From: Gemmatimonas sp. UBA2094
GTDB lineage: Bacteria; Gemmatimonadota; Gemmatimonadetes; Gemmatimonadales; Gemmatimonadaceae
Assembly: GCA_002331565.1 (NCBI GenBank)
Contig: DCZC01000168.1
Coordinates: forward strand, 1 to 31,036
Length of the DNA: 31,036 bases
Direction: 5' to 3'
Shown here: piece after piece, positions 2,368 through 26,524 of the stretch
Position numbering within the stretch: the stretch's first letter is position 1
Layout: every line of letters begins with the position of its first letter
Made by a program: the position numbers and the translations under genes
The notes under the pieces: model-generated
Databases searched by the model: none
What the model saw: the letters and a program-made list of their open reading frames with translations, nothing else
Told to the model about the DNA's origin: nothing

Positions 2368-2401
2368 CCGAGTCGGCTGAGCTGGCCGGGCACCGTACCC
2401 C

Positions 2402-4060: not shown

Positions 4061-4066
4061 GCGCGT

Positions 4067-8831: not shown

Positions 8832-8882
8832 GGCGCAGGGTGCACCCATGGTGTTGCGAGCGTCCGAAGTCCATGAATTTTA

Positions 8883-8911: not shown

Positions 8912-9001
8912 TTCTCAGGTGGGCGGCGACGCATCCGTTGCCGCCCGTTTGAGTTATCGGGGGAGGGTCACCGGGCCGCTTCCCCGTTTTCGTCCCGGGT
9001 C

Positions 9002-10297
9002 ATGGTTCGCGTCACGCAAGTCGAACCGGGGACCATTGCCGATCAGGTCGGCATCGTCCCCGGCACCGAGCTCCTCGCCGTCAACGAACGGCCGTTGGAG
9101 GACTTCCTCGATTGGGAGTTCCTGACGGCCGACGAGGCGTTCGTGGTAGCGGCGCGCCTGCCCGATGGCAGCGAGGTGGAGTACGAGATCGAGCGCGAGC
9201 CCGGCGACTCCATGGGGGTCGAGCTGGCGCCGCCCACCGTGCGCCGCTGCGCCAACCGCTGCGAGTTCTGCTTCATCGAGGGGTTGCCCAAGGGACTGCG
9301 CAAGGGCCTCTACATTCGCGATGACGATTATCGTCTCTCGTTTGCGTACGGCAACTTCGCCACGTTGTCGAACGTGAAGGAGCGGGACATTGCGCGCATC
9401 CTCGAGTACCGGCTGTCGCCGTTGTACGTCTCAGTGCACGCCACGCCCTGGGAAGCGCGCAAGGTGCTGCTCAATAATCCGCGGGTGCCCAACATCCTCG
9501 AGCAGCTCACGCGACTGGCCGACGGCGGCATCCAATTCCACTGCCAGATGGTGATCGTGCCGGGCCTCAACGATGGCGAGGTGCTCGAGCAATCACTCAC
9601 CGACCTCTGGCGTCTCGACGAGGCCGTCTTGTCGGTGGCGCTCGTACCGGTGGGCGTGACGCAGTTCTCGCATCTCTACACGGGGCAGCCGATGGACGAG
9701 GCGAACGCCCGGATGCTGTTGGACGCGGTGCACCGCTGGGAAGCCCGGGCGCTCGAAGCGCGTGGTGACCGCTGGGTATTCGGGTCGGACGAACTGTATC
9801 TGCTGGCCGGCGAGCCGCTCCCCGGTGTGGAGCATTACGGCGAGTTCTCGCAGATCGAGAACGGCGTCGGGGCCGTGACCTCGCTGCGCGCACGCGTGCG
9901 CGACGGTTTGCTGCAGCTGCCACGGCTCGACGGGCGGCGCATCGGTGTGGTGACCGGCACATCCATGGCACCGCTCATGCCCGAACTGCTCGAGCAACTC
10001 ACCGAGGCCACGGGCGCAGAGTTCCTTCTCATTCCCACCGAGAACTCGTTGTTCGGACCGACGACCACGACGGCCGGTTTGCTCGTGGGCGCCGACATCC
10101 GCCGCGCGCTCTCGGATCGGACCGATCTCGACCTCGCACTCATTCCGGCAGAATGCATCAACGACGACGGGCTCTTCCTCGACGAAGAGCCGTTCATCGC
10201 GGTGCGCGAGGCCCTGCCCATGCCCGTGTATCCCTCGTACGACTTCATTGACGCGCTCGTGCCCGAAGGGGATGCGGCGGTCGTTCCCGCTGCCTGA
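9002..10297 (+). CDS. DUF512 protein: PDZ-like domain plus radical-SAM-type Fe-S domain
   Basis: The exact function is unknown. Residues 1-65 resemble a PDZ domain (VTQVEPGTIADQVGIVPGTELLAVN). The motif C83-x3-C87-x2-C90 (RRCANRCEFCF) is a radical-SAM-type Fe-S site, followed by the family signature GLPKGLRKGLYIRDDDYRLSF. A DUF512 domain fills the C-terminus, with GVVTGTSMAPLMPELLEQL inside it. The length (431 aa) is normal for the family. It has a promoter of its own (8883-8911), and the gene sits 8 bp upstream of der. From memory, a DUF512-der-plsY-gpsA order also occurs in Clostridia, which hints at a role linked to ribosome assembly or envelope growth. No Shine-Dalgarno sequence is visible before the ATG. 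Confidence 0.9.
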   Translation: MVRVTQVEPGTIADQVGIVPGTELLAVNERPLEDFLDWEFLTADEAFVVAARLPDGSEVEYEIEREPGDSMGVELAPPTVRRCANRCEFCFIEGLPKGLRKGLYIRDDDYRLSFAYGNFATLSNVKERDIARILEYRLSPLYVSVHATPWEARKVLLNNPRVPNILEQLTRLADGGIQFHCQMVIVPGLNDGEVLEQSLTDLWRLDEAVLSVALVPVGVTQFSHLYTGQPMDEANARMLLDAVHRWEARALEARGDRWVFGSDELYLLAGEPLPGVEHYGEFSQIENGVGAVTSLRARVRDGLLQLPRLDGRRIGVVTGTSMAPLMPELLEQLTEATGAEFLLIPTENSLFGPTTTTAGLLVGADIRRALSDRTDLDLALIPAECINDDGLFLDEEPFIAVREALPMPVYPSYDFIDALVPEGDAAVVPAA

Positions 10298-10305
10298 ATT
10301 TCCGC

Positions 10306-11625
10306 ATGAGCCTTCCAGTCGTTGCCATCGTCGGACGCCCCAACGTGGGCAAGTCACACCTGTTCAACCGTATCATCGGCGAAGCCACGGCCATCGTGAG
10401 CGACGAGGCGGGCACCACCCGCGACCGTCACTTCGGCGAGGCCGAGTGGGCAGGGCATCACTTCTGGCTGGTCGATACGGGCGGGCTCGTCGAAGATTCC
10501 GACCTGCCCATGGACCTGGCAATTCGTCGTCAGGTCATCGAGGCCATCGACGAGGCCGATCTCATGCTCTTCGTGTGCGACGCGAAAGTCGGGGTCCATC
10601 CGAGCGATGCGCGCATCATGGACCTGCTGCGTAACTCCCAGAAGCCGTGGCTGCTGGTGGCCAACAAGGTCGACAATCCGGAGAGCACCGACTTCTACGA
10701 GTTCTATCGACTTGGCGTAACCGACGTGTACCCGGTCTCGGCGAGCAACGGCAAGGGCTCGGGTGACCTGCTGGACGCCGTGGTCAATGCCATCCCCGAG
10801 ACCAACGAGGAGCGCCCCGAGGCCATCCGCGTGGCGGTGATCGGTCGCCCCAATGTGGGCAAGTCGAGTTTCGTGAACCGGCTGCTCGGCGAGGACCGGC
10901 TCGTGGTGAGCGACATGTCGGGCACCACGCGTGACGCCATCGACGCCCCGATGCGCTACAAGGAGACCGATCTCATCTTCGTCGACACGGCTGGGCTGCG
11001 CCGGCAGTCGAAGATCGACGACGGAGTGGAGTTCTATTCGTCGCTGCGTACGCGCCGCGCCATCGACTCGTCCGATGTGTGTGTCCTGATGATCGACGCC
11101 ACCGAAGGGTTGCAGAATCAGGACCTCAAGATCGCCACCATGGCGTGGGAGGCGGGACGTGGGCTCATCCTCGTGATCAACAAGTGGGACCTGTACGAGG
11201 ACAAGACCGACAAGAGCGCCGACAAGTTCCGCAAGGAAGCCATCGACAAGGCGCCCTACTTCAAGTTCGTGCCGTTTCTGTTCACCAGTGCCGTGACGGG
11301 CCAGCGGGTCACCAAGGCCCTCGACCTCGTCCTCGAGGTGCAGGAGCAGCGCACGCGCCGCATCACGACGTCTCAGGTGAACGATGCGCTCGAGGAGATG
11401 GTGGCCCGTCGTCAGCCGCCGCAGGCCGCGGGCCGCGAAGTGAAGCTCAACTACGCCACGCAGGTCGAGATCGAACCGCCCACGATCGCCGTCTTCGGCA
11501 ATCACCCCGAGGCGATCCCCGAGCACTACATCCGCTTCCTGCACAACGGATTCCGGGAGAAATGGGGCTTCACCGGTTCGCCGCTGCGCATCATTCTCCG
11601 AAGAAAGAATAGTGATCGGACTTGA
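10306..11625 (+). CDS. der: Ribosome-assembly GTPase Der (EngA)
   Basis: Der is an essential double GTPase that binds the 50S subunit during assembly. It has 439 residues. The first G domain starts with GRPNVGKS (10-17) and has DTGG as G3 and NKVD as G4. The second has GRPNVGKSS, DTAG and NKWD. The C-terminal KH-like domain ends with FTGSPLRIILRRKN, the usual Der ending. One oddity: the residue after the first GKS is His18 (codon CAC), where the family normally has Thr or Ser. The Mg-binding Ser is kept, so activity is probably retained. The 3' end overlaps the plsY start by 14 nt. Confidence 0.97.
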   Translation: MSLPVVAIVGRPNVGKSHLFNRIIGEATAIVSDEAGTTRDRHFGEAEWAGHHFWLVDTGGLVEDSDLPMDLAIRRQVIEAIDEADLMLFVCDAKVGVHPSDARIMDLLRNSQKPWLLVANKVDNPESTDFYEFYRLGVTDVYPVSASNGKGSGDLLDAVVNAIPETNEERPEAIRVAVIGRPNVGKSSFVNRLLGEDRLVVSDMSGTTRDAIDAPMRYKETDLIFVDTAGLRRQSKIDDGVEFYSSLRTRRAIDSSDVCVLMIDATEGLQNQDLKIATMAWEAGRGLILVINKWDLYEDKTDKSADKFRKEAIDKAPYFKFVPFLFTSAVTGQRVTKALDLVLEVQEQRTRRITTSQVNDALEEMVARRQPPQAAGREVKLNYATQVEIEPPTIAVFGNHPEAIPEHYIRFLHNGFREKWGFTGSPLRIILRRKNSDRT

Positions 11626-12250
11626 GCTCCCGCTTTGGACGCTCGGCGCAGCGTATCTCGCCGGGTCGTTTCCCACCGCGTACCTCGTTGGCAAGGCCAA
11701 CGGGGTCGATCTGCGCACGGTCGGTTCCGGCAATCTCGGCGCGACCAACGTGTACCGGACGCTCGGGTGGCAGTGGGGGCTCTTGGTGTATCTCGTCGAC
11801 GGGCTGAAGGGGCTACTGCCGACGGTCCTGCTCCCCGGCGCGGTCGGCGTGGCGGGCGGCTGGCCGTGGGGGGTGCTGCTCGGCGTGCTCGCCATTGTCG
11901 GACACGTGAAGCCCATTTTCCTCATGGGGAAGGGGGGCGGGAAGGGGGTGGCGACCGCGAGCGGCGTGTTCTTCGCGCTCGCACCGGTGGCTGGCGCCTG
12001 TGCACTGCTGGCGTTCGCGCTGACGGTAGCGGCCACTCGCTACGTGTCGCTCGGATCACTTATCGGTGCGCTGGTTCTGCCGGTGGCCATGATGGCGCAG
12101 GCACGCGCGATCACGCCGCTCAGCCTCGTGGGTGCGGGTATCGCCGCCTTCGTGTTCTACACGCACCGCGACAATATCCGTCGGCTCATGCGCGGCAACG
12201 AACGCAAGCTCGGTGGCGACAAATCGGTGCAAGAGGGAGGAATGACATGA
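11612..12250 (+). CDS. plsY: Glycerol-3-phosphate acyltransferase PlsY
   Basis: PlsY transfers an acyl group from acyl-phosphate to glycerol 3-phosphate, the first step of phospholipid synthesis, in the inner membrane. It has 212 residues and several hydrophobic helices. The three PlsY motifs are visible: AGSFPTAYLVGK, GSGNLGATNVYRTLG and GHVKPIFLMGKGGGKGVAT. The start is taken as GTG 11612, inside the end of der, preceded by a purine-rich stretch (GAAGAAAG). The C-terminal tail is cytoplasmic, charged and slightly longer than usual. The stop overlaps the gpsA start, so the two enzymes that make and use glycerol 3-phosphate are translationally linked. Confidence 0.95.
   Translation: MIGLELPLWTLGAAYLAGSFPTAYLVGKANGVDLRTVGSGNLGATNVYRTLGWQWGLLVYLVDGLKGLLPTVLLPGAVGVAGGWPWGVLLGVLAIVGHVKPIFLMGKGGGKGVATASGVFFALAPVAGACALLAFALTVAATRYVSLGSLIGALVLPVAMMAQARAITPLSLVGAGIAAFVFYTHRDNIRRLMRGNERKLGGDKSVQEGGMT
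12235..12240 (+). promoter_or_regulatory. Shine-Dalgarno site of gpsA
   Basis: GGGAGG lies 6 nt before ATG 12247. It is one of the few strong ribosome-binding sites in the window and decides the gpsA start. The nearer ATG at 12242 is out of frame and stops after two codons. Confidence 0.75.
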
Positions 12251-13266
12251 TTCCGAACACCACTGCGGCTGCCATGCGCTGCGCCGTAATTGGCGGAGGA
12301 GCGTGGGGGACGGCCATTGCTGACCGGCTCGCGCGCAACGGTCACGACACGGTGCTGTGGGCGCGCGAGAAGGATGTGGTGGAGGCCATCAACACACGCC
12401 ACGAGAATCCGCGTTTTCTCGCCGACATTCCGTTGTCGCCGGCGCTCGTCGCGGCCGCTGACATGTCGCAGGCGCTACGTGGCGCCCAGCTGGTCGTGTA
12501 TGCGGCGCCGTCCCACGTACTGCGACCGGTCGTGGCGAGTTGCGCCCAGCACATCGGCGCGGGGACCGTGCTCTCCGTGGCCACCAAGGGCATCGAGCGG
12601 GAGACGCTCGCCCTCATGACCGAGGTCGTGGGCGAGGCCGCACCCGGGCATCCGGTCGTTGCCGTGAGCGGACCCAGCTTCGCCGCCGAGGTGGCGAAGG
12701 GGCAGCCTACTGCCGTCGTCGCGGCGTGCGCCGATCATTCGGCGGCCAAGCTGGTTCAGGGCGCCATGAGTGCGTCGGCCTTCCGCGTGTACACCAGCGA
12801 CGATGTGGTGGGCGTGGAACTCGGTGGTGCGCTCAAGAACGTGATGGCCCTGGCGACGGGAATTCTCGACGGCCTCGGTATGGGTTTCAATCCGCGCGCG
12901 GCGCTCATCACACGCGGTCTCGCCGAGATGACGCGGCTCGGCGTTGCCCTTGGTGCCAAGGCCGATACGTTCGCCGGTCTGGCAGGGCTCGGCGATCTGG
13001 TGCTCACGTGTACCGGAGCGCTGTCGCGCAATCGCGCCGTCGGGGTGGCCATCGGCATGGGACAGACCCTGGATGAGGCCATTGCCGGCAAGGACACCGT
13101 GGCCGAAGGCGTGCTCAACACCCAGAGCGCCAAGGCCCTCGCGGACAAGACGGGGGTGGCGATGCCAATCGTCGACGCAGCCCATCGCATCCTGTTCGAC
13201 GGCTGTGCTCCGCGTGATGCGGTGGCGGAGCTCATGGCGCGCGAACTGCGCGCGGAGCGCGACTGA
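12247..13266 (+). CDS. gpsA: NAD(P)-dependent glycerol-3-phosphate dehydrogenase
   Basis: GpsA reduces dihydroxyacetone phosphate to sn-glycerol 3-phosphate, the substrate of PlsY. It has 339 residues. The nucleotide loop is GGGAWGTA (16-23). SGPSFAAEVA (141-150) is a family signature, and the catalytic lysine is K197 in GGALKNVMALATG. The substrate-binding segment GLAGLGDLVLTCTG follows. ATG 12247 is chosen for its strong Shine-Dalgarno site and its ATGA overlap with plsY. A much longer in-frame extension upstream runs through plsY and is arginine-rich, so it is not coding. The MerR-type gene starts 2 bp after the stop. Confidence 0.97.
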   Translation: MIPNTTAAAMRCAVIGGGAWGTAIADRLARNGHDTVLWAREKDVVEAINTRHENPRFLADIPLSPALVAAADMSQALRGAQLVVYAAPSHVLRPVVASCAQHIGAGTVLSVATKGIERETLALMTEVVGEAAPGHPVVAVSGPSFAAEVAKGQPTAVVAACADHSAAKLVQGAMSASAFRVYTSDDVVGVELGGALKNVMALATGILDGLGMGFNPRAALITRGLAEMTRLGVALGAKADTFAGLAGLGDLVLTCTGALSRNRAVGVAIGMGQTLDEAIAGKDTVAEGVLNTQSAKALADKTGVAMPIVDAAHRILFDGCAPRDAVAELMARELRAERD

Positions 13267-13268
13267 CC

Positions 13269-13634
13269 ATGGCGGCCGCGCGCGGCGAACTCGTGCAGGA
13301 GTTCTACTCCATCGGCGACGTGTGCACCCTCACGGAGCTCAAGCCGCACGTGCTCCGTTACTGGGAAAGCCAGTTCAAGCTGCTCAACCCCGCGAAGAAT
13401 CGCAGCGGCAATCGCGTGTACTCGCGGCGTGAGGTGGAACTGATCCTGCTCGTGAAGCATCTGCTCTATACCGAGAAGTACACCATCGACGGTGCACGGC
13501 AAAAGCTCGACGAGCATCGCAAAGGCGGTTCCCTGCGTCCCGCCGCCCGGGCGGCGCTGGAAGTCGAAGCCCTCGAAAGCATCGAGCGTGAACTCGCCGA
13601 GTTGCAGGCTATGCTCGACGACGCCGCACGCTGA
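13269..13634 (+). CDS. MerR-family transcriptional regulator, short
   Basis: This is a 121-residue protein with an N-terminal MerR winged helix. FYSIGDVCTLTELKPHVLRYWE (from about residue 12) contains the helix-turn-helix and the 'LRYWE' signature. The wing follows, with SGNRVYSRREVELILLVKHLL. The C-terminal third is a helical, charged segment that could be the dimerising coiled coil (EALESIERELAELQAML). No metal-binding cysteine cluster or effector domain is visible, so it is not a metal sensor of the MerR/CueR type. It resembles the short MerR-like regulators common in Gram-negative housekeeping operons. The gene sits 2 bp after gpsA and 15 bp before surE. Its target is unknown. Confidence 0.88.
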   Translation: MAAARGELVQEFYSIGDVCTLTELKPHVLRYWESQFKLLNPAKNRSGNRVYSRREVELILLVKHLLYTEKYTIDGARQKLDEHRKGGSLRPAARAALEVEALESIERELAELQAMLDDAAR

Positions 13635-13649
13635 TTCCCCCATTCATCC

Positions 13650-14408
13650 ATGCGCCTCCTCCTCAGTAACGACGACGGCATTCTCGCGAAGGGACTCAGC
13701 GTCCTCGAGCAGGCCGTCACGCCGCTCGGCGATATCCACGTGGTCGCCCCCGACCGCGAACAGAGTGCCACCAGCCACTCGCTCACACTGCATCATCCGC
13801 TGCGCCCCGTACGCCTGGGCGACAAGCGCTGGCAGGTGGACGGGACCCCCACCGACTGCGTCATGCTGGCCTGTGAAGCGCTGCTCGAGAAACGTCCCGA
13901 GTTCGTGTTGAGCGGCATCAACCACGGCCCCAACATGGGCGAGGACGTGCTCTACAGCGGGACCGTGGCCGCCGCGATGGAAGGGCTCGCGCTGGGCATT
14001 CCCGCCGTAGCGCTGTCGTTCGCGGGCAGCGTACTGCGCGCGGACGCCATTCTCGATACGCAGGTTTCGCAGATTCGTGCCCTGGTGTCGCACCTCATGC
14101 AGCTCAAGACGTTCCCGCCCGACACCCTGCTCAATGTCAACCTCCCCGCCGTCCCGGGCCACGAGATCAAGGGTGTGCGCCTCACGCGACTCGGCCGCCG
14201 GGTGTTCAGTGATTCCATCACGAAGATGAAGGATCCTTGGGGCCGTGAGATTCTGTGGATCGGCGGCGGCAGTGTGGAGTGGAGCGGGCCGGAGGACTCA
14301 GATTTCCGCGCGGTGCACGATGGGTACATCTCGGTGACCCCGCTGCACCTCGATCTGACACACCGGGACATCCTCGACGCGGCGACGGACTGGTGGCAGG
14401 CGCCGTAG
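13650..14408 (+). CDS. surE: 5'/3'-nucleotidase SurE
   Basis: SurE is a metal-dependent phosphatase of nucleoside monophosphates linked to stationary-phase survival. It has 252 residues. The metal-binding NDDG is at 7-10 and PDREQSATSHSLTL is at about 34-47. SGINHGPNMGEDVLYSGTVAAAMEG (about 88-112) is the second signature. The gene is followed directly by pcm, as in the surE-pcm pair of Proteobacteria, where both handle damaged molecules. The pcm start lies inside the surE 3' end. Confidence 0.96.
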   Translation: MRLLLSNDDGILAKGLSVLEQAVTPLGDIHVVAPDREQSATSHSLTLHHPLRPVRLGDKRWQVDGTPTDCVMLACEALLEKRPEFVLSGINHGPNMGEDVLYSGTVAAAMEGLALGIPAVALSFAGSVLRADAILDTQVSQIRALVSHLMQLKTFPPDTLLNVNLPAVPGHEIKGVRLTRLGRRVFSDSITKMKDPWGREILWIGGGSVEWSGPEDSDFRAVHDGYISVTPLHLDLTHRDILDAATDWWQAP

Positions 14409-15049
14409 AGCCGGAGTTCCGCGGCGCACGTCGTCGGCTGGTGGAGGCGCTGCAGGACAAGGGCATCAAGGATCTCGCCCTCCTGCGCGCCATCGACAGC
14501 GTCCCACGTCACCTCTTCGTACCGCCCACGGTAAGGCATCGGGCGTACGAGGATTCGGCGTTGCCCATCGGCAATGGCCAGACCATTTCGCAGCCATACG
14601 TGCACGCGCGCGCAGTGGAGCAGTTGATGCTCACGGGGGGCGAGAAGGTGCTCGAAATCGGCACCGGCTCGGCCTACCAGACCGCGTTACTCGCGCAGCT
14701 CGCGGCGCAGGTGTTCTCGGTCGAGCGCTATCGTGAACTGCTCGATCGCGCCCGGGTGATTCTGCAACAGGCCAACGTGCGCAACGTCTCGCTGTCGCTC
14801 GGCGACGGCACCCTTGGGTGGCGTGAGTACGGGCCGTACGACGGTATCGTAGTGAGCGCCGGGGCCCCACAGGTGCCGCAGGCGTTGGAGGACCAGTTGG
14901 CCGAGGGGGGCCGCCTCCTCATTCCCCTCGGTGACAAGGAGGAGCAGATGCTCACCCTGTTCGTGAAGCGGGGCGGCCAGCTCGAGCGGCGTGACATCAC
15001 CTCCGTTCGCTTCGTCCCCTTGATTGGAGCGCAGGGTTGGCCTGGGTAG
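14393..15049 (+). CDS. pcm: Protein-L-isoaspartate O-methyltransferase
   Basis: PCM methylates isoaspartyl residues so that they can revert to aspartate, which repairs aged proteins. I chose GTG 14393, overlapping surE by 16 nt, because it gives 218 residues, close to the family length of about 210. Longer in-frame versions run back through surE. Motifs are the active-site segment NGQTISQPY (61-69), the SAM loop VLEIGTGSAYQTALLA (about 86-101) and the late motif EGGRLLIPLGD. A GTG about 48 nt downstream is a possible alternative start. The 68 bp after the stop separate it from apt. Confidence 0.95.
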   Translation: MAGAVEPEFRGARRRLVEALQDKGIKDLALLRAIDSVPRHLFVPPTVRHRAYEDSALPIGNGQTISQPYVHARAVEQLMLTGGEKVLEIGTGSAYQTALLAQLAAQVFSVERYRELLDRARVILQQANVRNVSLSLGDGTLGWREYGPYDGIVVSAGAPQVPQALEDQLAEGGRLLIPLGDKEEQMLTLFVKRGGQLERRDITSVRFVPLIGAQGWPG

Positions 15050-15105
15050 CCCGCGGCGACGATCCCCTGCGGTGACGCGGCCCCTGTTCGCCACCAACCG
15101 CTGAT

Positions 15106-15111
15106 TACATT
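15106..15111 (+). promoter_or_regulatory. Possible -10 element of a leaderless apt transcript
   Basis: TACATT ends 6 nt before the apt ATG at 15118, so a start point at the usual distance would fall on or next to the A of the start codon. No good -35 is visible 16-18 bp upstream. The AAGG directly touching the ATG is too close to act as a Shine-Dalgarno sequence. Weak evidence. Confidence 0.3.
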
Positions 15112-15117
15112 GCAAGG

Positions 15118-15687
15118 ATGACGTTAGCCCCAGCCCACGACTCGCTCGCCGCCCGCGTCGCAGGTGCGCTGCGTGACGTTCCGGATTTTCCCGCGCCCGG
15201 GATTCTCTTCAAGGACATCACCCCCGTGCTCGCCGATCCGCAGCTGATGCGTGACGTGGTAGAGCGGATGTGCGCCCCGTATGCCGATGCCGGCATCACG
15301 CACGTGGTGGGTGTCGAGAGCCGCGGATTTCTCTTCGGTATGCCGATGGCCCTCGCGCTTGGCGTGCCGTTCGCGCCGGCGAGGAAGCCGGGGAAGCTGC
15401 CGTGGCACACGGCACGCGAGGAGTACACGCTCGAGTACCGGAACGATGTCCTCGAGATGCACGAGGATGCCCTCGCGCTTGGCCGTGGCGCCGATGTGCC
15501 GCAACGTTCGCGGACGCTCGTCGTGGACGATGTGCTCGCCACGGGTGGTACGGCGGCGGCGACGTGCCGACTCGTGGAGCGACTGGGTGGCGTGGTGCAG
15601 GGGGTCGCCGTGCTCGTCGAACTCGGTGTCCTCGGCGGCCGGGCACTGATGCCCGGACGGAGCGTGACGGCGGTCCTGACGTTCTAG
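15118..15687 (+). CDS. apt: Adenine phosphoribosyltransferase
   Basis: APT salvages adenine with PRPP to give AMP. It has 189 residues. The N-terminal VPDFPAPGILFKDITPVLADP (about 21-41) and the ESRGFLFG loop (67-74) are characteristic. RKPGKLPWHT followed by YTLEYRNDVLEMH (about 89-115) is the flexible loop region of the APT family. The PRPP-binding motif is VVDDVLATGGT (135-145). The start follows a 68-bp gap, so it may have its own promoter. The final 12 bases of the gene carry the -35 element of the downstream tRNA promoter. Confidence 0.97.
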   Translation: MTLAPAHDSLAARVAGALRDVPDFPAPGILFKDITPVLADPQLMRDVVERMCAPYADAGITHVVGVESRGFLFGMPMALALGVPFAPARKPGKLPWHTAREEYTLEYRNDVLEMHEDALALGRGADVPQRSRTLVVDDVLATGGTAAATCRLVERLGGVVQGVAVLVELGVLGGRALMPGRSVTAVLTF

Positions 15688-15704
15688 GCGAGATTTCGTA
15701 TAGT
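15676..15704 (+). promoter_or_regulatory. Sigma-70-type promoter of the tRNA-Arg gene
   Basis: CTGACG (15676-15681) and TATAGT (15699-15704) are 17 bp apart. The -35 overlaps the apt stop codon region. Transcription would start near 15711, about 29 nt before the mature tRNA. An 8-bp direct repeat (CCGCGGGT) lies in the leader. Confidence 0.65.
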
Positions 15705-15739
15705 TAGGTGCGCCGCGGGTCACCGCGGGTGTGCCGGAC

Positions 15740-15814
<75 letters not shown>

Positions 15815-15906
15815 TTTGGGGATGAGGCGGGTGCCTTGTCGCGGTGAATCCCATTATGTTATCGGGTTGTAGCTCGTACCCCACCTTTCACCGTTGGCAT
15901 ATCCGC

Positions 15907-16572
15907 ATGGCGCAGGCGACCCGTAACGCAGCAAGCTCCTCGGCCTCCTTGAGCGACGACCCGATCGAGTCGGTCTCCACCTGGTTCCAGGGGAACAGCA
16001 AGCCGATTCTGATGGCGGTCGGCGGCGCCGCCGTGGCCGCGGCGGCTGTGATGCTGTACCGCAGCAGCACGGCGTCGACCCGTGAGAAGGCATCGGCCGC
16101 GCTGTACGCGGCGCAGACCCCATACGTCGAGGGGAAGTTGCCGGAGGCGGAAAAGGCGCTTGGTACGGTCGTCACGCGGTTCGGCAGCACGGCGGCCGGC
16201 CAGCAAGCGGCGGTCCTTCTGGCCCAGGTGCAGTTCGACCAGAACAAGGTCGACGAGGGGATCAAGACGCTTGAGCAGGCTGTTGGCGGCAGTTCGGCTG
16301 AGTTCAAGTCGAGCATCGAGGGGCTGATTGCCGCGGGCTACGAGCAGAAGAAGGATTTCGTGAAGGCGGCCGAACATTACGCGAAGGCCGCGTCGGCCTC
16401 GCCGTTCAAGTCCGAGAAGTACAACCAGCAGGCCAACCAGGCGCGGAGCCTCATGACCGCCGGCAAGGACGCGGACGCGCTCAAGATCTGGGAAGAACTG
16501 GCCAAGCTCGACGGCGAGCCGATTCAGCAGGAAGCGAGCGTTCGCATCGGCGAACTGCTCGGCAAGAAGTAA
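15907..16572 (+). CDS. Membrane-anchored TPR protein (YfgM-like)
   Basis: The product is not firmly identified. ATG 15907 gives 221 residues; a start further upstream would add about 21 residues of poor quality. Residues 1-30 are hydrophilic and Ser/Ala-rich, followed by one transmembrane segment (about 33-51, PILMAVGGAAVAAAAVMLY). The rest is alpha-helical with TPR-like repeats (for example YVEGKLPEAEKALGTVV, AAEHYAKAA, DALKIWEELAKL). This N-in, single-helix plus TPR layout is that of YfgM-like proteins, which assist envelope protein folding at the translocon. Orthology is an inference. It is the last + strand gene before dif and is followed by three hairpins. Confidence 0.8.
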   Translation: MAQATRNAASSSASLSDDPIESVSTWFQGNSKPILMAVGGAAVAAAAVMLYRSSTASTREKASAALYAAQTPYVEGKLPEAEKALGTVVTRFGSTAAGQQAAVLLAQVQFDQNKVDEGIKTLEQAVGGSSAEFKSSIEGLIAAGYEQKKDFVKAAEHYAKAASASPFKSEKYNQQANQARSLMTAGKDADALKIWEELAKLDGEPIQQEASVRIGELLGKK

Positions 16573-16645
16573 GGCCAGGGCGTCTGGCCCGGTTCGACCG
16601 GGCGACACGAAATCGGGCGGGTTCCTCGGCGGAACTCGCCCGATT
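16573..16645 (+). terminator. Three consecutive hairpins after the TPR gene
   Basis: Starting at the TAA stop there are three inverted repeats. The first is GGCCAG/CTGGCC with a 5-nt loop (16573-16589). The second is CCCGGT/ACCGGG with a 3-nt loop (16588-16602). The third is a 15-bp stem with one G-U pair and a 5-nt loop (16611-16625 with 16631-16645). The last is very stable and is the likely 3' end of the + strand transcript. No U-run follows, so it may act with Rho or as an RNA-end protector. Confidence 0.65.
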
Positions 16646-16727
16646 GTGCATTCCGGTTCGAATGTGACACTCACAGGGCAGTAGCTTGCGGCGATGGCGC
16701 CAGTTGCGATCTTTTACGACCCGGAAG

Positions 16728-16755
16728 TGTGCGTATAATACATGTTATGTAAACC
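16728..16755 (+). other. Candidate dif site (XerC/XerD chromosome dimer resolution site)
   Basis: The 28 bp have the dif layout. The left (XerC-type) arm is TGTGCGTATAA (16728-16738), the centre is TACATG (16739-16744) and the right (XerD-type) arm is TTATGTAAACC (16745-16755). Recalled reference arms: E. coli dif has GGTGCGCATAA (9 of 11 equal) and TTATGTTAAAT (8 of 11), and B. subtilis dif has the right arm TTATGTAAACT (10 of 11). The inner ATAA...TTAT dyad is present. The site is intergenic, exactly where the gene direction switches from all + to all - strand, as expected at a replication terminus. XerC and XerD would recombine here under FtsK control. The TATAAT inside it is part of the site and should not be read as a promoter. 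Confidence 0.82.
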
Positions 16756-16952
16756 GACGGTCGTGGATAACCGTGGGAAACTTGCCTGTAGAAATCGGGG
16801 CCGGATGTGGGAATCTCGTGTAAGTCCAGTTCCTTGAATCGTTTGCATCGCTTCTGCTGAGTCGAAATGTCATCTGCCGGTCACGGATTGTTGTTCTGTC
16901 CACCTGTCCACATGGCTCGTCGTGTATTTCTTCGGGGTTCGGAGCGGCGAAC
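16756..16952. other. Non-coding, AT-richer stretch next to dif
   Basis: No convincing gene is seen. The composition is visibly less GC-rich than the flanking genes. CGTGGATAA (16762-16770) reads TTATCCACG on the other strand, one base from the DnaA-box consensus. GTGGGAAA (16773-16780) and CTGTCCACA (16904-16912) are weaker look-alikes. The stretches 16755-16766 and 16908-16922 can pair over 12 bp with two small bulges. No promoter independent of dif is visible, so an RNA gene cannot be claimed. Confidence 0.5.
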
Positions 16953-16979
16953 AAAAACGGCGCCCTGAAGGCGCCGTTT
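16953..16979 (-). terminator. Intrinsic terminator of the pyrG-to-dapF gene run
   Basis: A perfect 10-bp stem (16955-16964 with 16970-16979, AAACGGCGCC/GGCGCCGTTT) has a 5-nt loop. Read on the - strand it continues as a run of five T with GTT after it, just 20 bp past the dapF stop. On the + strand the tail is weaker (TTTCTGTC), but the structure may also block stray + strand transcripts. Confidence 0.85.
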
Positions 16980-16999
16980 CTGTCAGCCGCCATGGGCAT

Positions 17000-17863
17000 T
17001 CAGAGGTCGCCGGTGACCCCGCGGAAGACCACGCGGCCCTCACCGCGTAACGTCGGCTTGACCCCTGCCGAGCCGGTGTCCGATCCCAAGGGACGCAGCT
17101 GGACCTCGAGGACCCGGCCCGAACTTGTCACGATCGGCACCGTGTCCGAGGTGACCTGTCCCCAGGATGCCAGCAGGGTTGCCGTCGCTACGGCGCCCGT
17201 GCCACAGGCGAGCGTCTCCCCTTCTACACCACGCTCGAAGGTCCGGTAGCGCCAACGTCCATCCGCCAGCCGGGAGACCCAGTTGACGTTCGCACCGGTC
17301 GGTCCCGCCGCCGTGTGCCACCGAAGCAGGGGGCCGCGTCCGGCCACGTCTACCGCTTCGGCGTCGTCGCACAAAATGACCAGATGCGGGATCCCGGCGA
17401 TTACGAAGCCGATGCGCTGCTCGCCGGCCTCGGGTTCGATGGCGCTCTCCGGGCGGATATCCGTGACCGGCTGAAAATCGATTTCTGGCAGGATGCCCTG
17501 GCCTGCCGGCCCACTCAGGCGGCTCGTGATGAGCCCAGCCCCCGTGGTCAGGCGCATGCCGTCAGCGGACGCCATGCCGAGCTGCGCCGACAGCGCGGTC
17601 GAACACAAGGTGGCATTTCCGCACAGATCGGCGGCCGTGCCGTCCTGATTGTAGAAGTGAATGACGACGTCGGCGCCACCGCTGGCCGGCTCGAGCACCA
17701 CCAGGCCGTCTGATCCTATCCCATTATATCTGTTGCAGATACGACGTATCGCCTCAGGTTCTGTGACAACGTCGAGTGGCACCTCACGCCCGTCGAAGAA
17801 GACGAAATCGTTGCCCGAGCCGGTCATCTTCGTGAACGGCAGTCCGCTCAGTGGCTTGGTCAT
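17000..17863 (-). CDS. dapF: Diaminopimelate epimerase (variant active-site signature)
   Basis: DapF converts LL- to meso-diaminopimelate for lysine and peptidoglycan. ATG 17863 gives 287 residues, starting MTKPLSGLPFTKMTGSGNDF, with the usual KM.GsGNDF opening. The two catalytic cysteines are at C81 (LCGNATLC) and C220 (ACGTGAVATA). The first differs from the common CGNGxRC signature: Gly is Ala and Arg is Leu. The rest of the fold (NGIGSDGLVVLEP, GIPHLV, GANVNWV, RTFERGVEGETLACG) is normal, so this is still probably DapF. The start overlaps the stop of the upstream GT2 gene (TGATG). It is the last gene of the - strand run and is followed by a terminator. Confidence 0.9.
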   Translation of the reverse strand: MTKPLSGLPFTKMTGSGNDFVFFDGREVPLDVVTEPEAIRRICNRYNGIGSDGLVVLEPASGGADVVIHFYNQDGTAADLCGNATLCSTALSAQLGMASADGMRLTTGAGLITSRLSGPAGQGILPEIDFQPVTDIRPESAIEPEAGEQRIGFVIAGIPHLVILCDDAEAVDVAGRGPLLRWHTAAGPTGANVNWVSRLADGRWRYRTFERGVEGETLACGTGAVATATLLASWGQVTSDTVPIVTSSGRVLEVQLRPLGSDTGSAGVKPTLRGEGRVVFRGVTGDL

Positions 17864-18627
17864 CAGTAGCGCCCGGTGATTCCCCACCAGCGGAGGCGCC
17901 ACACCATCCAGATGGCCTCTCGCACGATGCGCTTCGACATCTTCGAGTCGCCTTCCGTACGATCGTGGAAGACGATCGGAATCTCGGCGATGCGAAAACC
18001 GCGCTTCCACGCCCGGAAGCTCATCTCGATCTGGAACGCGTAGCCGTTCGAGCGTACCCGGTCGAGCGGAATCGCCGACAGCACCTCGCGGCGGAAGCAC
18101 TTGAAGCCGCCTGTCGCGTCACCGAGCCGAAGCCCCGTAATGGCACGGGCATAAATGTTGGCACCGTACGACAGGATGAGGCGGGTCATCGGCCAGTTGA
18201 CCACGGTCACCTTCCCGTCGCGGTAGCGCGACCCGAGGACGATATCGGCACCGTGGATGGCCGCCAGAAACTCCGGAAGGTGATTCGGGTCGTGCGAGAA
18301 GTCGGCGTCCATCTCGAAGACATACGCATAGTCGCGCTCCAGCGCCCAGCGGAAGCCGGCGAGGTAGGCCCTGCCGAGACCTTCCTTGCCGGCGCGGTGC
18401 AGCACGTGCACACGCGAATCGGCCGCCGCCAGCTCGTCTGCCAGTCGACCGGTGCCATCCGGCGAATTGTCATCGACGACCAGCACGTCGAGCCGCGGAT
18501 CCTGTTCGAGGATGCGCGGCACGATCCGGGTGATGTTGTCGCTTTCGTTGTACGTCGGCACGATCACCACCGCGCGTTCACCGAACGCGAGTGATCCCCG
18601 AGCCGGGGCTTTCATAACAGTCATCAT
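17863..18627 (-). CDS. Polyprenyl-phosphate glycosyltransferase, Dpm1-like GT2
   Basis: The protein likely transfers a sugar, often mannose, from a nucleotide sugar to polyprenyl phosphate at the inner membrane. The 254 residues lack transmembrane helices, as in soluble bacterial Dpm1-type enzymes. Motifs are PTYNESDN (24-31), DDNSPDGT (52-59), EMDADFSHDP (about 105-114, with the DxD at 107-109) and GSRYRDG. The C-terminal segment GGFKCFRREVL and the FxDRxxGxSKMS-like FHDRTEGDSKMSKRI are typical. Three ATGs lie near the start (18627, 18624, 18615); I use the first. The 108 bp upstream contain a G/C hairpin close to the start (18639-18661) and a 7-bp inverted repeat (18706-18733). Confidence 0.9.
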   Translation of the reverse strand: MMTVMKAPARGSLAFGERAVVIVPTYNESDNITRIVPRILEQDPRLDVLVVDDNSPDGTGRLADELAAADSRVHVLHRAGKEGLGRAYLAGFRWALERDYAYVFEMDADFSHDPNHLPEFLAAIHGADIVLGSRYRDGKVTVVNWPMTRLILSYGANIYARAITGLRLGDATGGFKCFRREVLSAIPLDRVRSNGYAFQIEMSFRAWKRGFRIAEIPIVFHDRTEGDSKMSKRIVREAIWMVWRLRWWGITGRY

Positions 18628-18735
18628 ACGATCGGTATGGGGGGCAGGCGAATTGCCCCATGCGGAAACATAGTGTGGATCGGCAAGGAGTTGCGCGCCG
18701 CCAGCGCTCCCGTGGCGTTCCGGAGTCGGGAGCCT

Positions 18736-19710
18736 TCACGGAGCGCCACGTGGCCGGTCCCGCTTGCCGCCGAGCCCGGCCCGCTGCGCGGGTGTCATGA
18801 GTAGCAGACCGACCAGCCCCGGGAGCACTTCCAGACTCGTGAGCCACACGCGCGAGGTCGCGCCGAGGATGGCCGCATCCCCCTGCCCCGCGGCGCCGCC
18901 GGCGATGAGCAGGGCACTGAGCGCCAGTTCCCGAAAGCCTATGCCACCGGGGGCGAACAACGCCAGAAAACCCACGAGGTATGACGCCGCGTAGATGGCG
19001 ATGTACAGCGTTGCGTTGGGGACGAGCGGGAGGACCCCTCGCGCGAAGCAGGCGAAGGCGAGCCCGTACCCGACCCAGGAGCACGTATTGAGCAGGGCCG
19101 CGAGCCAGACGTCGCGATTGCGCAGATGCTGCTCGGCGACCGGGAGCCCCCGCTTCAAGGCGTAGCGGTCGAGGATCGTTGGCAGAACGAACGGCAGCAG
19201 AATGACCCCGACGATGAATGCGAGGGCCGCAACCAACGAGACGCTCTGCAAGCCCGGCGAGACGGCGTCGAGGAACCGCCCACCGAACACGACCGCGACG
19301 CCGAAGCCGGCGCCGATATTCAAGAGCGTCCCCAGGATCGAAGCGCCGATCGCCGCGACTCCCGAGACGCCCTCGCGCGACGCGAGCAAACCCATGGCCC
19401 CGATCGACCACACCTTGCCGGGCACGTAACGCCCGAGATTGGAGACGGTCCAGATCTGGACGGCCCTCCCGTACGGCAACGAGCCACCCCACCCTGACAG
19501 CAGTAACCGCCAACTTTGTACGAGCATCGCGTAGGTGCCCAGGACCAGCGCGCTGGCGGCAAGAATCCACCCCCAACGGATGTGCAACGTCCGGGCGGCT
19601 CGCTCGACTTCTCCCCATTGCCGGTACAGCACCCACCCGATGAAGCCGAAGGTGAGGCTCAGCAGCAGCGCCCGCACCATGGGCGAGCGCATCACGCGCG
19701 CGACGTTCAT
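18736..19710 (-). CDS. Flippase-like integral membrane protein (UPF0104 / LPG-synthase TM family)
   Basis: The product is a polytopic membrane protein of 324 residues with about eight hydrophobic segments, of the lysylphosphatidylglycerol synthase transmembrane / AglD-like family. ATG 19710 (MNVARVMRSPMVRALLLSL) is chosen because it overlaps the GT4 stop (ATGA). Longer in-frame versions begin with an arginine-rich, non-coding-like stretch. Conserved patches are NLGRYVPGKVWSIGAMGLLA and the late FAPGGIGFRELALSALL, both typical of this family. These proteins often sit beside Dpm1-like glycosyltransferases and are proposed to move or use lipid-linked sugars. The substrate here is unknown. No soluble MprF aminoacyl-transfer domain is present. 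Confidence 0.85.
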   Translation of the reverse strand: MNVARVMRSPMVRALLLSLTFGFIGWVLYRQWGEVERAARTLHIRWGWILAASALVLGTYAMLVQSWRLLLSGWGGSLPYGRAVQIWTVSNLGRYVPGKVWSIGAMGLLASREGVSGVAAIGASILGTLLNIGAGFGVAVVFGGRFLDAVSPGLQSVSLVAALAFIVGVILLPFVLPTILDRYALKRGLPVAEQHLRNRDVWLAALLNTCSWVGYGLAFACFARGVLPLVPNATLYIAIYAASYLVGFLALFAPGGIGFRELALSALLIAGGAAGQGDAAILGATSRVWLTSLEVLPGLVGLLLMTPAQRAGLGGKRDRPRGAP

Positions 19711-20924
19711 GGGCGCCGTGCCCCGAGGCCGGCAGCATTGGCATACAGCGCCAGATATCGGCGCGCGACGGCGACCGGCGCGAAACGCGCCTGCATCTCG
19801 GCTCGTGCGCAAGACCCGAGGCGCTCGACAGTGCGGTCGTCGGCCGTGACACGCGCGATTGCCTCGGCGAGCGCGCCGATATCGCCGCACGGGACCAGCG
19901 TGCCACCATGCTCAGGGCGTACCACGTCCAACAGGCCGCCATCAGCGTAGGCCACCACCGGAGTGGCGCAGAGTTGGGCCTCCACGGCTACGAGGCCCAG
20001 TCCCTCTCCCCGTGACGGCATGATCACGGCACGGGCTCCGCGGTAGAGCGGAACCAGCGCGCCTTGCGGCAGCAGGCCGCGCCACTGGATGCGCGGAGCG
20101 ACGTGCAGGGTCGCGGCGAGCGCCTGGAGCGCCTCACGATCCGGGCCGTCGCCTACCACCACGAGCGTGTGATTCGCGAGCGCCGGCAAGGCGAGGGCCC
20201 GAAGCAGGTCTGCCAATCCTTTCTGCGCATTCAGCCGGCCGACGAAGAGCACCCCCTCCCGCTGCCCGTCGGCGCCGGCGACCGCCGGAAGTGCATCGAA
20301 ATGGCGGACATCGACCGGCATAGGGGCCACCTCGATGTCACCAGCGGGCGCGAGGCGGTGCGCCAGGTCGGCCAACCAGCCGGACACGGCGGTGCGGATG
20401 ACCGCTTCGCCGAGTACCGCTCGCATGACGGGATGAACGACGGGCTTGTTTTCGGCGAGTCGCACGTCGGAGCCGTGCATGGTCAGCACCCGTGCAGGAT
20501 CACCGGCGCGCGAGGTTTTGAGCAGCGCGAGTCCCGACGGGAACCACCAGTGAACGTGCACCACATCGAACGGATCGCCGCTCCGGCGTGCGTGGTCGAG
20601 GCAACGCCGCACGTGGCGTCGCGTGGCGGCCAGCAACTGCAGGAGGGCCAGGCGGCCGCTCCACGAGCCGGCGACCGTTTCAGCCATCGTACCGGTGTAG
20701 GCGAGGGTCATGCGCGCGTCGCTGGCGTAGCGCACGCGATCGATCCGGACGCCTTCCAGCGTGTCACTGGCCGGGAGTCCGGAGGCGCCCGGCGCGACGA
20801 TGTGGACGCGGGCCCCCTGCTCCTGCAGCGCCACCGCGAGCCGCAGAACGAACGAGCCCGCGGCGTCCCCCTCGTGCCGTGGGACATTGTGCGTCACGAA
20901 GAGGATCCGGGGCGCGTGTGGCAC
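19707..20924 (-). CDS. GT4-family glycosyltransferase
   Basis: This is a retaining, nucleotide-sugar-dependent glycosyltransferase with a GT-B fold. I place the start at GTG 20924 (405 aa, MPHAPRILFVTHNVPRHEGD), because the in-frame sequence before it runs through the upstream GT2 gene and is arginine-rich. The N-terminal domain has VVHVHWWFPSGLALL and TMHGSDVR. The C-terminal domain has LFVGRLNAQKGLADLL, VVVGDGPDREAL and MPSRGEGLGLVAVEAQ, with the E-x7-E donor-site motif. It resembles exopolysaccharide and lipopolysaccharide mannosyl- or glucosyltransferases. BshA is a member of the same family, but the N-terminal pattern here does not match what I recall of BshA. It lies 17 bp after the GT2 gene and overlaps the flippase-like gene. 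Confidence 0.88.
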   Translation of the reverse strand: MPHAPRILFVTHNVPRHEGDAAGSFVLRLAVALQEQGARVHIVAPGASGLPASDTLEGVRIDRVRYASDARMTLAYTGTMAETVAGSWSGRLALLQLLAATRRHVRRCLDHARRSGDPFDVVHVHWWFPSGLALLKTSRAGDPARVLTMHGSDVRLAENKPVVHPVMRAVLGEAVIRTAVSGWLADLAHRLAPAGDIEVAPMPVDVRHFDALPAVAGADGQREGVLFVGRLNAQKGLADLLRALALPALANHTLVVVGDGPDREALQALAATLHVAPRIQWRGLLPQGALVPLYRGARAVIMPSRGEGLGLVAVEAQLCATPVVAYADGGLLDVVRPEHGGTLVPCGDIGALAEAIARVTADDRTVERLGSCARAEMQARFAPVAVARRYLALYANAAGLGARRP

Positions 20925-20941
20925 GCGAGCGGGCGCGATCG

Positions 20942-21973
20942 TCAGGCCGGTTCGCGCGCGGCGTCGCGCGTCGCCCCTTGTTCCTCGGCTTCCATCTGCA
21001 TGGCGGTCAGTTCGCCAAGTTCGCGGCGCATCTCGCGCACCTCGGAGCGCTGCTGCGCGATCTGCTCGCCGAGCAAGCCGGTTGCGAAGAAGACGGAGCC
21101 GAGCACGAGACACGTCTGAATGACCGTCCACGCCCACCGCTGTCCGTCTCCGGTCACGAGCAGCCACGCGAGGGCCCCGAGTCCGGCGAGAACGCCGATG
21201 GTAAACAGCGCCGCACCCAGCATGCCGAATGCCAGCAGGGGCTTCTGGCCGAACCGCAGTTCGAACCAGACGGCCACCATATCCAGCACGCCGATGGGAA
21301 TTCGGGACAGGCCGAATTTCGAGCGACCCGAATGGCGCGGATAGAGCGGAATGGGTACTTCGGTGACCGTGAACCCCTGAGCCGCCGCCATCACGATCAT
21401 GTAGCGATGGAAATCGGGGCGCATGGGAAGCGCGGCCATAATTTCGCGGCGGTAGGCCTTCACGTTGTTGAGATCGCGTACCGGCACGTGGAAGAGCGAC
21501 CGGCTCAATCCGTTGTAGATGCGGGACACGAACGCCTTCTCGTACTTGCCCTGCTTGAAGCCGGTGACCATGTCCGACTCACCGGCAAGGATGGGCCCCA
21601 CCAGGCTCGGAATATCCTCGGGCTTGAACTGCAGGTCGGCGGGGTAAAACACCAGGATCTGCCCGCGCGCGTGCAGGTAGCCGGTGCGCAGCGCCTCGGC
21701 GATTCCGCGCTGCGCCCGGTGTCGTACCGGATGCAGAAACGGAAAGCGCGCCCGCAGCTCCTGCAGCAGCGCCCAGCTGCCGTCGGCGGATCCGTCGTCG
21801 ACCACGACGATCTCGTAGCTCGCCTGTTGAGCGCGGATCATGTCGGCGCAGAGCTCGACGAAGAGCGCGAGGTTACCGGCTTCGTCCTTGGCCGGGACGA
21901 GCACGCTGACGTCCACGGCCGGTCGATCGGCCGGGCGCGGCGCAACGTGGAGGGGACGGGTGCTCACAGCCAT
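20942..21973 (-). CDS. GT2 glycosyltransferase with two C-terminal membrane helices (GtrB/ArnC-like)
   Basis: The protein has 343 residues. The GT-A domain shows SVLVPAKDEAGNL (about 23-35), VVVDDGSADGS (56-66) and YPADLQ (110-115), in place of the usual DADLQ. Then come NNVKAYRREI and PLYPRHSGRSKFG. Two transmembrane segments (about 246-273 and 281-303) and a short coiled-coil tail (about 303-332) complete it. This is the layout of polyprenyl-phosphate glucosyl- or aminoarabinosyltransferases such as GtrB and ArnC. It probably loads a sugar onto undecaprenyl phosphate for envelope modification. The gene follows rpoN by 55 bp, and the sugar is unknown. Confidence 0.88.
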   Translation of the reverse strand: MAVSTRPLHVAPRPADRPAVDVSVLVPAKDEAGNLALFVELCADMIRAQQASYEIVVVDDGSADGSWALLQELRARFPFLHPVRHRAQRGIAEALRTGYLHARGQILVFYPADLQFKPEDIPSLVGPILAGESDMVTGFKQGKYEKAFVSRIYNGLSRSLFHVPVRDLNNVKAYRREIMAALPMRPDFHRYMIVMAAAQGFTVTEVPIPLYPRHSGRSKFGLSRIPIGVLDMVAVWFELRFGQKPLLAFGMLGAALFTIGVLAGLGALAWLLVTGDGQRWAWTVIQTCLVLGSVFFATGLLGEQIAQQRSEVREMRRELGELTAMQMEAEEQGATRDAAREPA

Positions 21974-22028
21974 GCGGAGGGGGCGATTTCAATGAGCGGA
22001 AACGTACGGAGCGACGGGCAACCCGACC

Positions 22029-23525
22029 TCACACGCGCTTGCGCATGCGGGTGGGCAGCACACCCAACTGGTCACGGTACTTGGCCACAGTGCGCCGCGC
22101 AATCTGTACACCGGTTTGCTGCAGAATCTCGACGATCGCCTGGTCGGTGAGCGGGTTCTTGGGATCCTCCCCGGCCACCAGCTTCTCGATCTGATCCTTG
22201 ATGCCACGGGCGGAGACGTCGTCACCGTCGGCGGTGGACAGCCCCGATGAGAAGAAGAACTTGAGCGGGAGCACGCCGCGGGGCGTCTGCACGAATTTTT
22301 CGTTGGTCACACGGCTTACGGTGGACTCGTGCATGCCCACGGCTTCGGCCACTTCGCGCAGCGTCAGCGGCTTGAGGGCCTGCACTCCGCGCTCGAAGAA
22401 TTCACGCTGACGGTCGATGATGTAGTGCATCACCTTGAGCATCGTCTGTCGCCGCTGCTCGATGGCCTGAATCATCCAGTTCGCCGAATTGAGCTTGCTG
22501 GCGATGAAGTCCTTGCTCTCGGCATCGAAGCGCTTCTTGTCGCGGGCGATGTCCTGATAGGCGCGCGACAGCTTGAGGCGCGGCAGGTTGCCGTCGTTCA
22601 GGAAGATGTGATAGTCCCCGTCGATCTTCTCGACGACGAGGTCAGGAATGATATAATTGTCACTCCCCGCGCTGAAGCGGAGCCCCGGCTTGGGATCGAG
22701 CTTGGCGATCTCGTCGGCTGCCCCCTGCACCGCCTGCGCACTGATCCCGTATCGCTTGGCGAGTTCGCTCCAACGGTGCGCGATGAGTTCCTCGAACGCC
22801 TCTTCGACCAGCCGATAGGCCAGTGAGGCTCGATGGCCGGCCGCCCGCAACTGCAGTAGCAGACATTCCCGGAGATCGCGTGCGCCCACGCCGGGAGGAT
22901 CGAGCTCCTGTATGATCTGCAGCATGCCGAGCATTTCCGCGTCGGAGAAGAGCGGCACATCGGCATCTATGTCACGTTCGTCCGCTTCCCCTTCAAGCAC
23001 CTCGTTCACTCCGCGCTGGATCTCGTCCAGCGGACACGCCAGATAGCCGTCGTCGTTGATGTTGCCAACGAACTCGTCGGCGAGGAGCGTCTGCCTCGGC
23101 GAAAGGTCGAGCAGCGACAGCTGTTCCGTGAGATGGTCGGAAAGATCCCTGGTGTCGACGGTGACCGGTTCGAAAAATTCACGCTGCTCGTGCTCTTCGC
23201 GCTGACCGCCGGTTTCGAAGCCGTCGAGCAGGACGGCCTCCCAATCGACCTCGTCGTCGCCGCTCTTCTCGGGCTCCGGCTCGGCCGATGCTTCCGGCTC
23301 CGTCAGGTCTTGCGCCTCGGCGCTGGCCTCGTTGGCGTCCGTCGAATCCTCGTCCTCGTCCTCGGGTTCGACGAGTTCGAGGAACGGATTCGTCAACAGT
23401 TCCTGCTTGAGATGCTGCTGCAGATCGAGAAGCGGCATGTGCAGGAGGTCCATCGCCTGATAGAGGCGCGGATTGACCTTGAGTTCCTGCCGGAGCCCCG
23501 CGTTCTGTTGCAGCCCGGTCTTCAT
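22029..23525 (-). CDS. rpoN: RNA polymerase sigma-54 factor
   Basis: RpoN directs transcription from -24/-12 promoters with the help of AAA+ activators. The 498 residues show all regions. Region I is Gln/Leu-rich ([20 protein letters not shown], then LLHMPLLDLQQHLKQEL). Region II is a long acidic stretch (about 50-97). The core-binding domain has AVGMHESTVSRVTNEKFVQTPRG in its helix-turn-helix. The RpoN box ARRTVAKYRD is at 476-485. The gene sits directly after lptB with a TGATG overlap, a pairing also known in Proteobacteria (lptB-rpoN). No hpf or ptsN follows. No -24/-12 promoter was identified in the window by eye. Confidence 0.97.
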   Translation of the reverse strand: MKTGLQQNAGLRQELKVNPRLYQAMDLLHMPLLDLQQHLKQELLTNPFLELVEPEDEDEDSTDANEASAEAQDLTEPEASAEPEPEKSGDDEVDWEAVLLDGFETGGQREEHEQREFFEPVTVDTRDLSDHLTEQLSLLDLSPRQTLLADEFVGNINDDGYLACPLDEIQRGVNEVLEGEADERDIDADVPLFSDAEMLGMLQIIQELDPPGVGARDLRECLLLQLRAAGHRASLAYRLVEEAFEELIAHRWSELAKRYGISAQAVQGAADEIAKLDPKPGLRFSAGSDNYIIPDLVVEKIDGDYHIFLNDGNLPRLKLSRAYQDIARDKKRFDAESKDFIASKLNSANWMIQAIEQRRQTMLKVMHYIIDRQREFFERGVQALKPLTLREVAEAVGMHESTVSRVTNEKFVQTPRGVLPLKFFFSSGLSTADGDDVSARGIKDQIEKLVAGEDPKNPLTDQAIVEILQQTGVQIARRTVAKYRDQLGVLPTRMRKRV

Positions 23526-26514: not shown

Positions 26515-26524
26515 GAGGTGGGGC

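Follow-up and report, generated by a model that had tools for sequence, protein, structure and literature searches.

Which element occupies positions 16728-16755 of this window (the whole stretch of DNA analysed, 31,036 nucleotides), and does it stand alone at its locus? The 28 letters are almost certainly the chromosomal dif of a Gemmatimonas-like genome, an identity that rests on sequence, position and gene content, with the biochemistry carried over from the known system. They are most likely the site at which accidentally fused chromosomes separate at the end of replication. For the locus as a whole, the best explanation is very probably a working dif with a lineage-specific accessory module on its XerD side.

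The dif site and the chromosome terminus

The features of the locus are arranged as follows.

15844..16572, + strand: gene for a TPR-repeat protein, left neighbour of dif
16728..16738, + strand: XerC-side arm of dif, TGTGCGTATAA, 9/11 to the E. coli arm
16739..16744, + strand: central region of dif, TACATG, as read in the sequence
16745..16755, + strand: XerD-side arm of dif, TTATGTAAACC, as read in the sequence
16763..16780, + strand: proximal accessory block, two direct units, GTGGATAAC and CGTGGGAAA, spaced by roughly a helical turn
16820..16845, no strand: weak dyad, genus consensus GTAAG..TTGC....AA....CTTAC, degenerate in the window
16896..16913, - strand: distal accessory block CTGTCCACCTGTCCACAT, tandem units opposite to the proximal block, genus only
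17000..17863, - strand: dapF (diaminopimelate epimerase), right neighbour, convergent

The 28-bp site on the + strand reads TGTGCGTATAA-TACATG-TTATGTAAACC in an 11-6-11 layout, and the arms around TACATG are present exactly as a sequence-only reading of this DNA had described them. The likeness to E. coli that it noted also holds for the left arm, which is identical at 9/11 positions to the fetched MG1655 dif arm when compared by eye. The window contains one match to the dif consensus at <=3 mismatches, which has 0 mismatches, against a chance expectation of 0.03; 3/100 shuffles of the window gave a match. This is also the single match at <=3 mismatches in the source genome (2.65 Mb in 243 contigs, 59% complete). 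Since the consensus read backwards gave 3 matches in the same genome at this threshold, only the perfect score is informative. No better match, which would have spoken against dif, was found elsewhere in the source genome, at 59% completeness, or in the single-contig relative G020, where the sole other match at <=2 mismatches carried 2.

The site is intergenic, as proposed, with the end of the TPR gene at 16572 (+) on its left and that of dapF at 17000 (-) on its right. The flip of transcription polarity at this point is borne out by Pfam or NCBIfam matches for 13/13 ORFs of the + strand on the left and 8/11 ORFs of the - strand on the right, in a test confined to ORFs on the strand expected for each side. 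With gene names partly inferred from Pfam, the left side (579-16572, +) carries GDH, bshC, murJ, uvrC, der, gpsA, surE, pcm and apt, and the right side (17000-28751, -) carries dapF, glycosyltransferases, rpoN and an ABC ATPase.

The further proposal that the window marks the chromosome terminus is supported by the GC-skew switch in G020, by the convergence of KOPS and by the distance from dnaA. GC skew and most KOPS counts were obtained from about 640 kb sampled of the 4.64 Mb of this one relative. Here, the suggested skew check shows a change of sign at dif, within 5 kb: within 50 kb of the site, skew is positive in 10/10 of the 5-kb bins on the left and negative in 9/10 on the right. Samples of 20 kb are positive in 13/15 cases left of dif and negative in 13/16 cases right of it, with exceptions at 2.13, 3.38 and 4.43 Mb on the right and in the two samples nearest dnaA on the left. 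The samples closest after dnaA (G020:C1:1-20000 and 120001-140000) have negative or near-zero skew, and the skew minimum may therefore not coincide with dnaA. In an unbiased octamer count of G020, the most strand-skewed word is the KOPS word GGGCAGGG, with 44 copies pointing toward dif versus 5 away. The KOPS motif GGGNAGGG occurs 70 times toward dif versus 19 away in the sampled 640 kb, and KOPS in the window itself number 6 toward and 1 away. In the single-contig genomes G020, G028 and G029, dif and dnaA are separated by 41.6, 45.0 and 43.8% of the chromosome, respectively.

Both recombinases are encoded in the source genome, XerD with a TIGR02225 score of 356.9 bits (cut-off 329.6) and XerC with a TIGR02224 score of 335.7 bits (cut-off 335.15). 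The XerC gene lies on another contig, and the XerD gene lies 17.4 kb from dif (G000:C108:34109-34624); genes for XerC and XerD are usually distant from dif. A tyrosine recombinase gene is found 17-21 kb from dif on the XerD side in 6/6 genomes, only that of the source genome being typed as XerD. An extra arm-binding domain on XerD was considered and none was seen, the protein matching XerD across nearly its full length. The FtsK-gamma domain is present in 5/6 genomes and was not found in the source genome at 59% completeness. By the known mechanism, XerC would bind the left arm of dif and XerD the right arm, FtsK, guided from both sides by KOPS pointing to dif, would activate XerD, and a crossover at dif would convert a chromosome dimer into two monomers.

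Among 61 genomes, the source genome included, the site is present with 0-1 mismatch in 57, so the 28 bp are conserved in relatives, a point on which the sequence-only reading had made its claim depend. At <=2 mismatches 58/61 genomes have a match, the sole match of G027 carrying 2 mismatches and being unlike dif; matches with 2 mismatches were not counted, because the backwards control also matched in 13/61 genomes at this threshold. Three genomes (G019, G040 and G050) have no match at <=2 mismatches in this search. The site appears to be single-copy, with one perfect match in the incomplete source genome and one each in single-contig G020, G028 and G029. In the drafts G010, G024 and G038, dif lies on two overlapping contigs each, and contigs end within 160 bp of dif in G010 (C159/C260), G024 (C25/C202), G038 (C70/C171), G016 (C195) and G036 (C123). 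A mobile element at the breaks in G010, G024 and G038 was considered and rejected: the alternative left flank of G010 resembles strain variation of one sequence, and the ORFs read in it are, by eye, the usual neighbours, with no mobile gene among them. Two other drafts each hold two copies of dif plus box that differ in their spacer letters (G336:C12/C41 and G283:C48/C98), perhaps from two strains or a mixed bin. The exact genus core was found in 20 named records, 18 of them titled Gemmatimonadetes, Gemmatimonadota, Gemmatimonadaceae or Gemmatimonas; of the remaining two, the title of the first says just 'bacterium' and the second bears a Kuenenia label that perhaps marks a mislabelled bin. 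A dif in this phylum is not new, because Kono 2011 already lists a predicted dif for its one Gemmatimonadetes genome (PMC3025954).

A conserved block on the XerD side

The dif site is followed by 6-7 variable bases and then by GTGGATAACTGTGGGAAA. This proximal block spans +8 to +25 after dif, and in 27 genus loci 16/18 of its columns are invariant, the other two being constant in 22/27 and 26/27 loci. These loci were selected for the usual core and the word GTGGATAA within 20 bases; the selection loses only one f2 locus (G043) and the genus member G011, which is the sole genus locus with another core and carries only the first unit. A fixed-frame profile of the 27 loci shows conservation of the XerD-side flank and not of the XerC-side flank. 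A repeat on the XerC side, suspected from a gapped alignment, was not seen in this profile and was dropped. Every one of the 25 matches to the 18-mer block at <=2 mismatches sits at dif; they come from 24/41 genomes, namely 23/25 of the genus plus one of f2, G010 having two on the contigs that overlap there. The sequence-only reading had made no mention of this block.

Outside the genus, a simpler form of the block can be followed. The search for [TC]GTGG[AG]NA at +14 to +19 covered 112 loci, those left after collapsing identical core plus first 25 flank letters, and dif variants are missed among them because selection used a strict dif pattern. The word TGTGGANAA or a close variant is found 15-16 bp past the XerD arm in 81/97 loci of one set of families and in 0/15 loci of four others. 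Under the analysis tool's own family labels, f1-f11, the box-bearing families are the genus (27/28), other f1 (20/27), f2 (25/32), f3 (4/5), f8 (3/3) and f5 (2/2). The genus and other f1 loci were counted by handle, with G011 placed in the genus and the total unchanged. The families without the box are f7 (0/11), f6 (0/2), f4 (0/1) and f9 (0/1), so that absence rests mainly on f7, and a further 16/97 loci of the box-bearing set, G011 included, have no recognisable box. The joint pattern TTATGTNAA-N17/18-TGTGGANAA is present in 112/395 genomes of the phylum, compared with 0/395 for the reversed control. Its matches are confined to f1, f2, f5 and f8 and include 0/25 genus genomes, which escape the pattern because their box reads TGTGGGAAA. 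Among the 54 boxed loci of the 85 non-genus loci, 17 have a second unit exactly 10 bp upstream, and spacings one or two bases off account for 2, 1, 2 and 1 loci. The variable letter of the non-genus boxes is G in 23, A in 17, C in 9 and T in 5.

The genus locus is larger. The distal block or a variant of it starts 139-142 bases after dif in 24/28 genus loci, about 115 variable bases past the proximal block; of the other four, a contig end truncates two, and the block is missing from the remaining two. Its exact form has 10 copies in 41 genomes, all at dif, and at 1-2 mismatches it is also found away from dif, for example in G045, G051 and G022. The weak dyad, moderately conserved, lies roughly midway between the two blocks, and no position in the dyad scan scores higher than its centre at +78 (0.372 versus a mean of 0.253, sd 0.032, in 25 loci). 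An IHF site was considered for this middle part, given YAANNNNTT[AGC] near +65 in 14/26 genus loci; it is absent in the window and was later read as part of the dyad.

Very probably, the flanking block is a real conserved accessory site. The conserved box pair beside dif suggests that an additional protein takes part there, and the block is accordingly described here as a putative accessory protein-binding module. The minimal module would be a TGTGGANAA box 15-16 bp past the XerD arm, joined in some loci by another unit nearer to dif by one helical turn, to which the Gemmatimonas module would add an inverted pair about 140 bp off and the weak dyad between. That the spacing is constant and the sequence in between is not points to binders of double-stranded DNA acting in one complex with dif, a complex that could possibly form a loop. 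A reading of the box as a KOPS was rejected: this lineage uses GGGCAGGG/GGGNAGGG as its KOPS, and the words of the box occur too seldom for that role, with counts of 5 and 2 for TGTGGANAA, for example, across the 640 kb. DnaA and dif are also present in families that have no box, so dimer resolution does not generally require it.

Known systems and rival readings

The usual description of chromosomal dif is of a 28-bp site for which XerCD and FtsK suffice. It is likewise presented as a 28-bp target in Kono 2011 (PMC3025954). By itself, the dif in this window is of low interest, since such a site was to be expected; for specialists, the accessory block is the part of interest. With the XerCD/dif-FtsK-KOPS system of E. 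coli the locus shares the 28-bp 11-6-11 site, XerC and XerD, FtsK-gamma (in relatives), polarised KOPS GGGNAGGG, the position far from dnaA and the GC-skew switch. The one E. coli dif examined, that of MG1655, has no TGTGGANAA box past the XerD arm, whereas a conserved block follows it here. The nearest published idea appears to be the XerA/dif system of Thermococcales, in which the flanks are conserved and a partner protein is considered by the authors (PMC2958812). Those flanks are described as about 23 bp, AT-rich and served by a single recombinase (PMC2958812), whereas here GTGGA boxes lie on the XerD side and XerC and XerD are both present. Titles and abstract openings in the literature searched gave no DnaA-box-like or GTGGA block at dif, which does not prove its absence from print. 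A block at fixed distance in several families, unseen in four of the same class, would mean that some bacteria add another protein at dif.

A dedicated accessory protein other than DnaA could bind the boxes and shape the XerCD-dif complex, making recombination dependent on topology or the cell cycle. This is somewhat unlikely, though in keeping with the fixed, helically phased placement beside the XerD arm, with the restriction of the genus block to dif, and with a variable letter that is free in non-genus boxes and A or T in the box upstream of dnaA. A parallel is provided by the plasmid sites cer and psi, in which a Xer core is joined by accessory DNA bound by host proteins, with accessory sequences of about 180 bp given for cer (PMC5357621). 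The comparison is between plasmid sites served by PepA and ArgR or ArcA (PMC5357621) and, here, a chromosomal dif with KOPS. Against a dedicated protein, no candidate was found, and the presence of FtsK-gamma (in relatives) and KOPS means that an accessory filter is not obviously needed. A replication fork trap, with opposed proximal and distal pairs stopping forks at dif in the manner of Tus-Ter or RTP-Ter, is improbable. It draws on the inverted pairs of the genus, the two tandem units per block and the skew change within 5 kb of dif in G020. The flip of gene orientation at dif could, however, alone explain the skew, and a Tus family protein is absent in 8/8 genomes searched. Outside the genus no distal pair was detected, so the trap would be one-sided in other families. 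In B. subtilis, TerI/TerII with RTP share with the genus block the arrangement as inverted pairs of tandem half-sites at the terminus. TerI/TerII are not known to sit at a constant distance of a few bases from dif.

Two further readings concern the conservation itself. That the block belongs to a transcribed RNA or a small gene overlapping dif is very improbable: TGTGGG of the proximal block could pair with matching letters in the distal block, but 0/15 predicted pairs show a change on both sides (RNA folding, 24 loci) and no Rfam match above the gathering score was found in 16000-17400. Additionally, no frame is stop-free in all 24 loci, and no sigma-70-like promoter was found in 16500-17050. 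It is scarcely credible that dif alone is real and that its flank reflects residual similarity of close relatives. The loci are indeed related, but the fixed-frame profile shows adjoining columns that are close to random, and the box holds a fixed offset across several families with 0/395 in the reversed control.

DnaA as candidate binder

DnaA is the leading candidate and the most likely single binder of the box, a plausible assignment made from sequence, although its chance of being correct is put at somewhat less than even. It is favoured because the box on the other strand reads TTNTCCACA. DnaA boxes are given as TTATCCACA in many bacteria and as TT(G/C)TCCACA in Actinobacteria (PMC4285127). 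Just upstream of dnaA, TTATCCACA is found in G020, G000, G029, G025 and G028, and TTTTCCACA in G033; the dnaA-dnaN gap of G224, with both genes confirmed, contains TTCTCCACA and TTATCCACC, both of which recur among the dif boxes. The region downstream of dnaA was compared in 28 of 30 loci, with region ends set by script: TCCAC[AC] occurs 60 times in 6313 bp of these 28 regions versus 83 times in 28 x 1200 bp of dnaA coding sequence. The densities are 9.5/kb and 2.5/kb, respectively, a difference of about fourfold. In other families, TGTGGANAA agrees with TTATCCACA at 8 or 9 of 9 positions.

Several observations count against DnaA. The TCCAC[AC] words downstream of dnaA begin with varying letters, where those at dif always begin with TT; 7/28 of the regions have no such word. 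The genus units are imperfect DnaA boxes, one at 8/9 and the others 2-3 letters off TTATCCACA, and this imperfection speaks against the assignment. Scanning 653 kb of G020 at <=1 mismatch to TTATCCACA gave no cluster, dif included. A search for triple TCCACA arrays matched 4/22 genomes, and the backwards control also matched 4/22, so that only the position of two of the true matches (G043 and G224), which adjoin dnaA, favours DnaA.

If DnaA does bind the box, it may couple the initiator's state to dimer resolution or termination, or it may instead be stored or reset at the terminus. A single locus would then link initiation with the end of the cell cycle. The stronger version, in which part of the Gemmatimonadota carries dif and a fixed DnaA-box array as one element, with dimer resolution or termination licensed by, or feeding back on, initiation, is doubtful. 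The datA and DARS sites of E. coli offer a comparison, as non-coding sites with multiple DnaA boxes, conserved sites and variable spacers, and datA and DARS2 are described as also carrying an IHF site (PMC4585315). The datA and DARS sites do not lie at dif in E. coli. At the present locus the boxes are imperfect, with an IHF-like core only weakly suggested.

A second DnaA-related protein was noticed in these genomes. In G020 (C1, ~1,693,232-1,695,010), a gene adjoining that of a DUF4388-TPR protein encodes a 592-aa protein in which two DnaA-type ATPase domains were recognised and the DnaA DNA-binding domain was not. Second DnaA-type matches like this protein occur in >20/30 genomes, and the gene lies ~240 kb from dif in G020 and G028.
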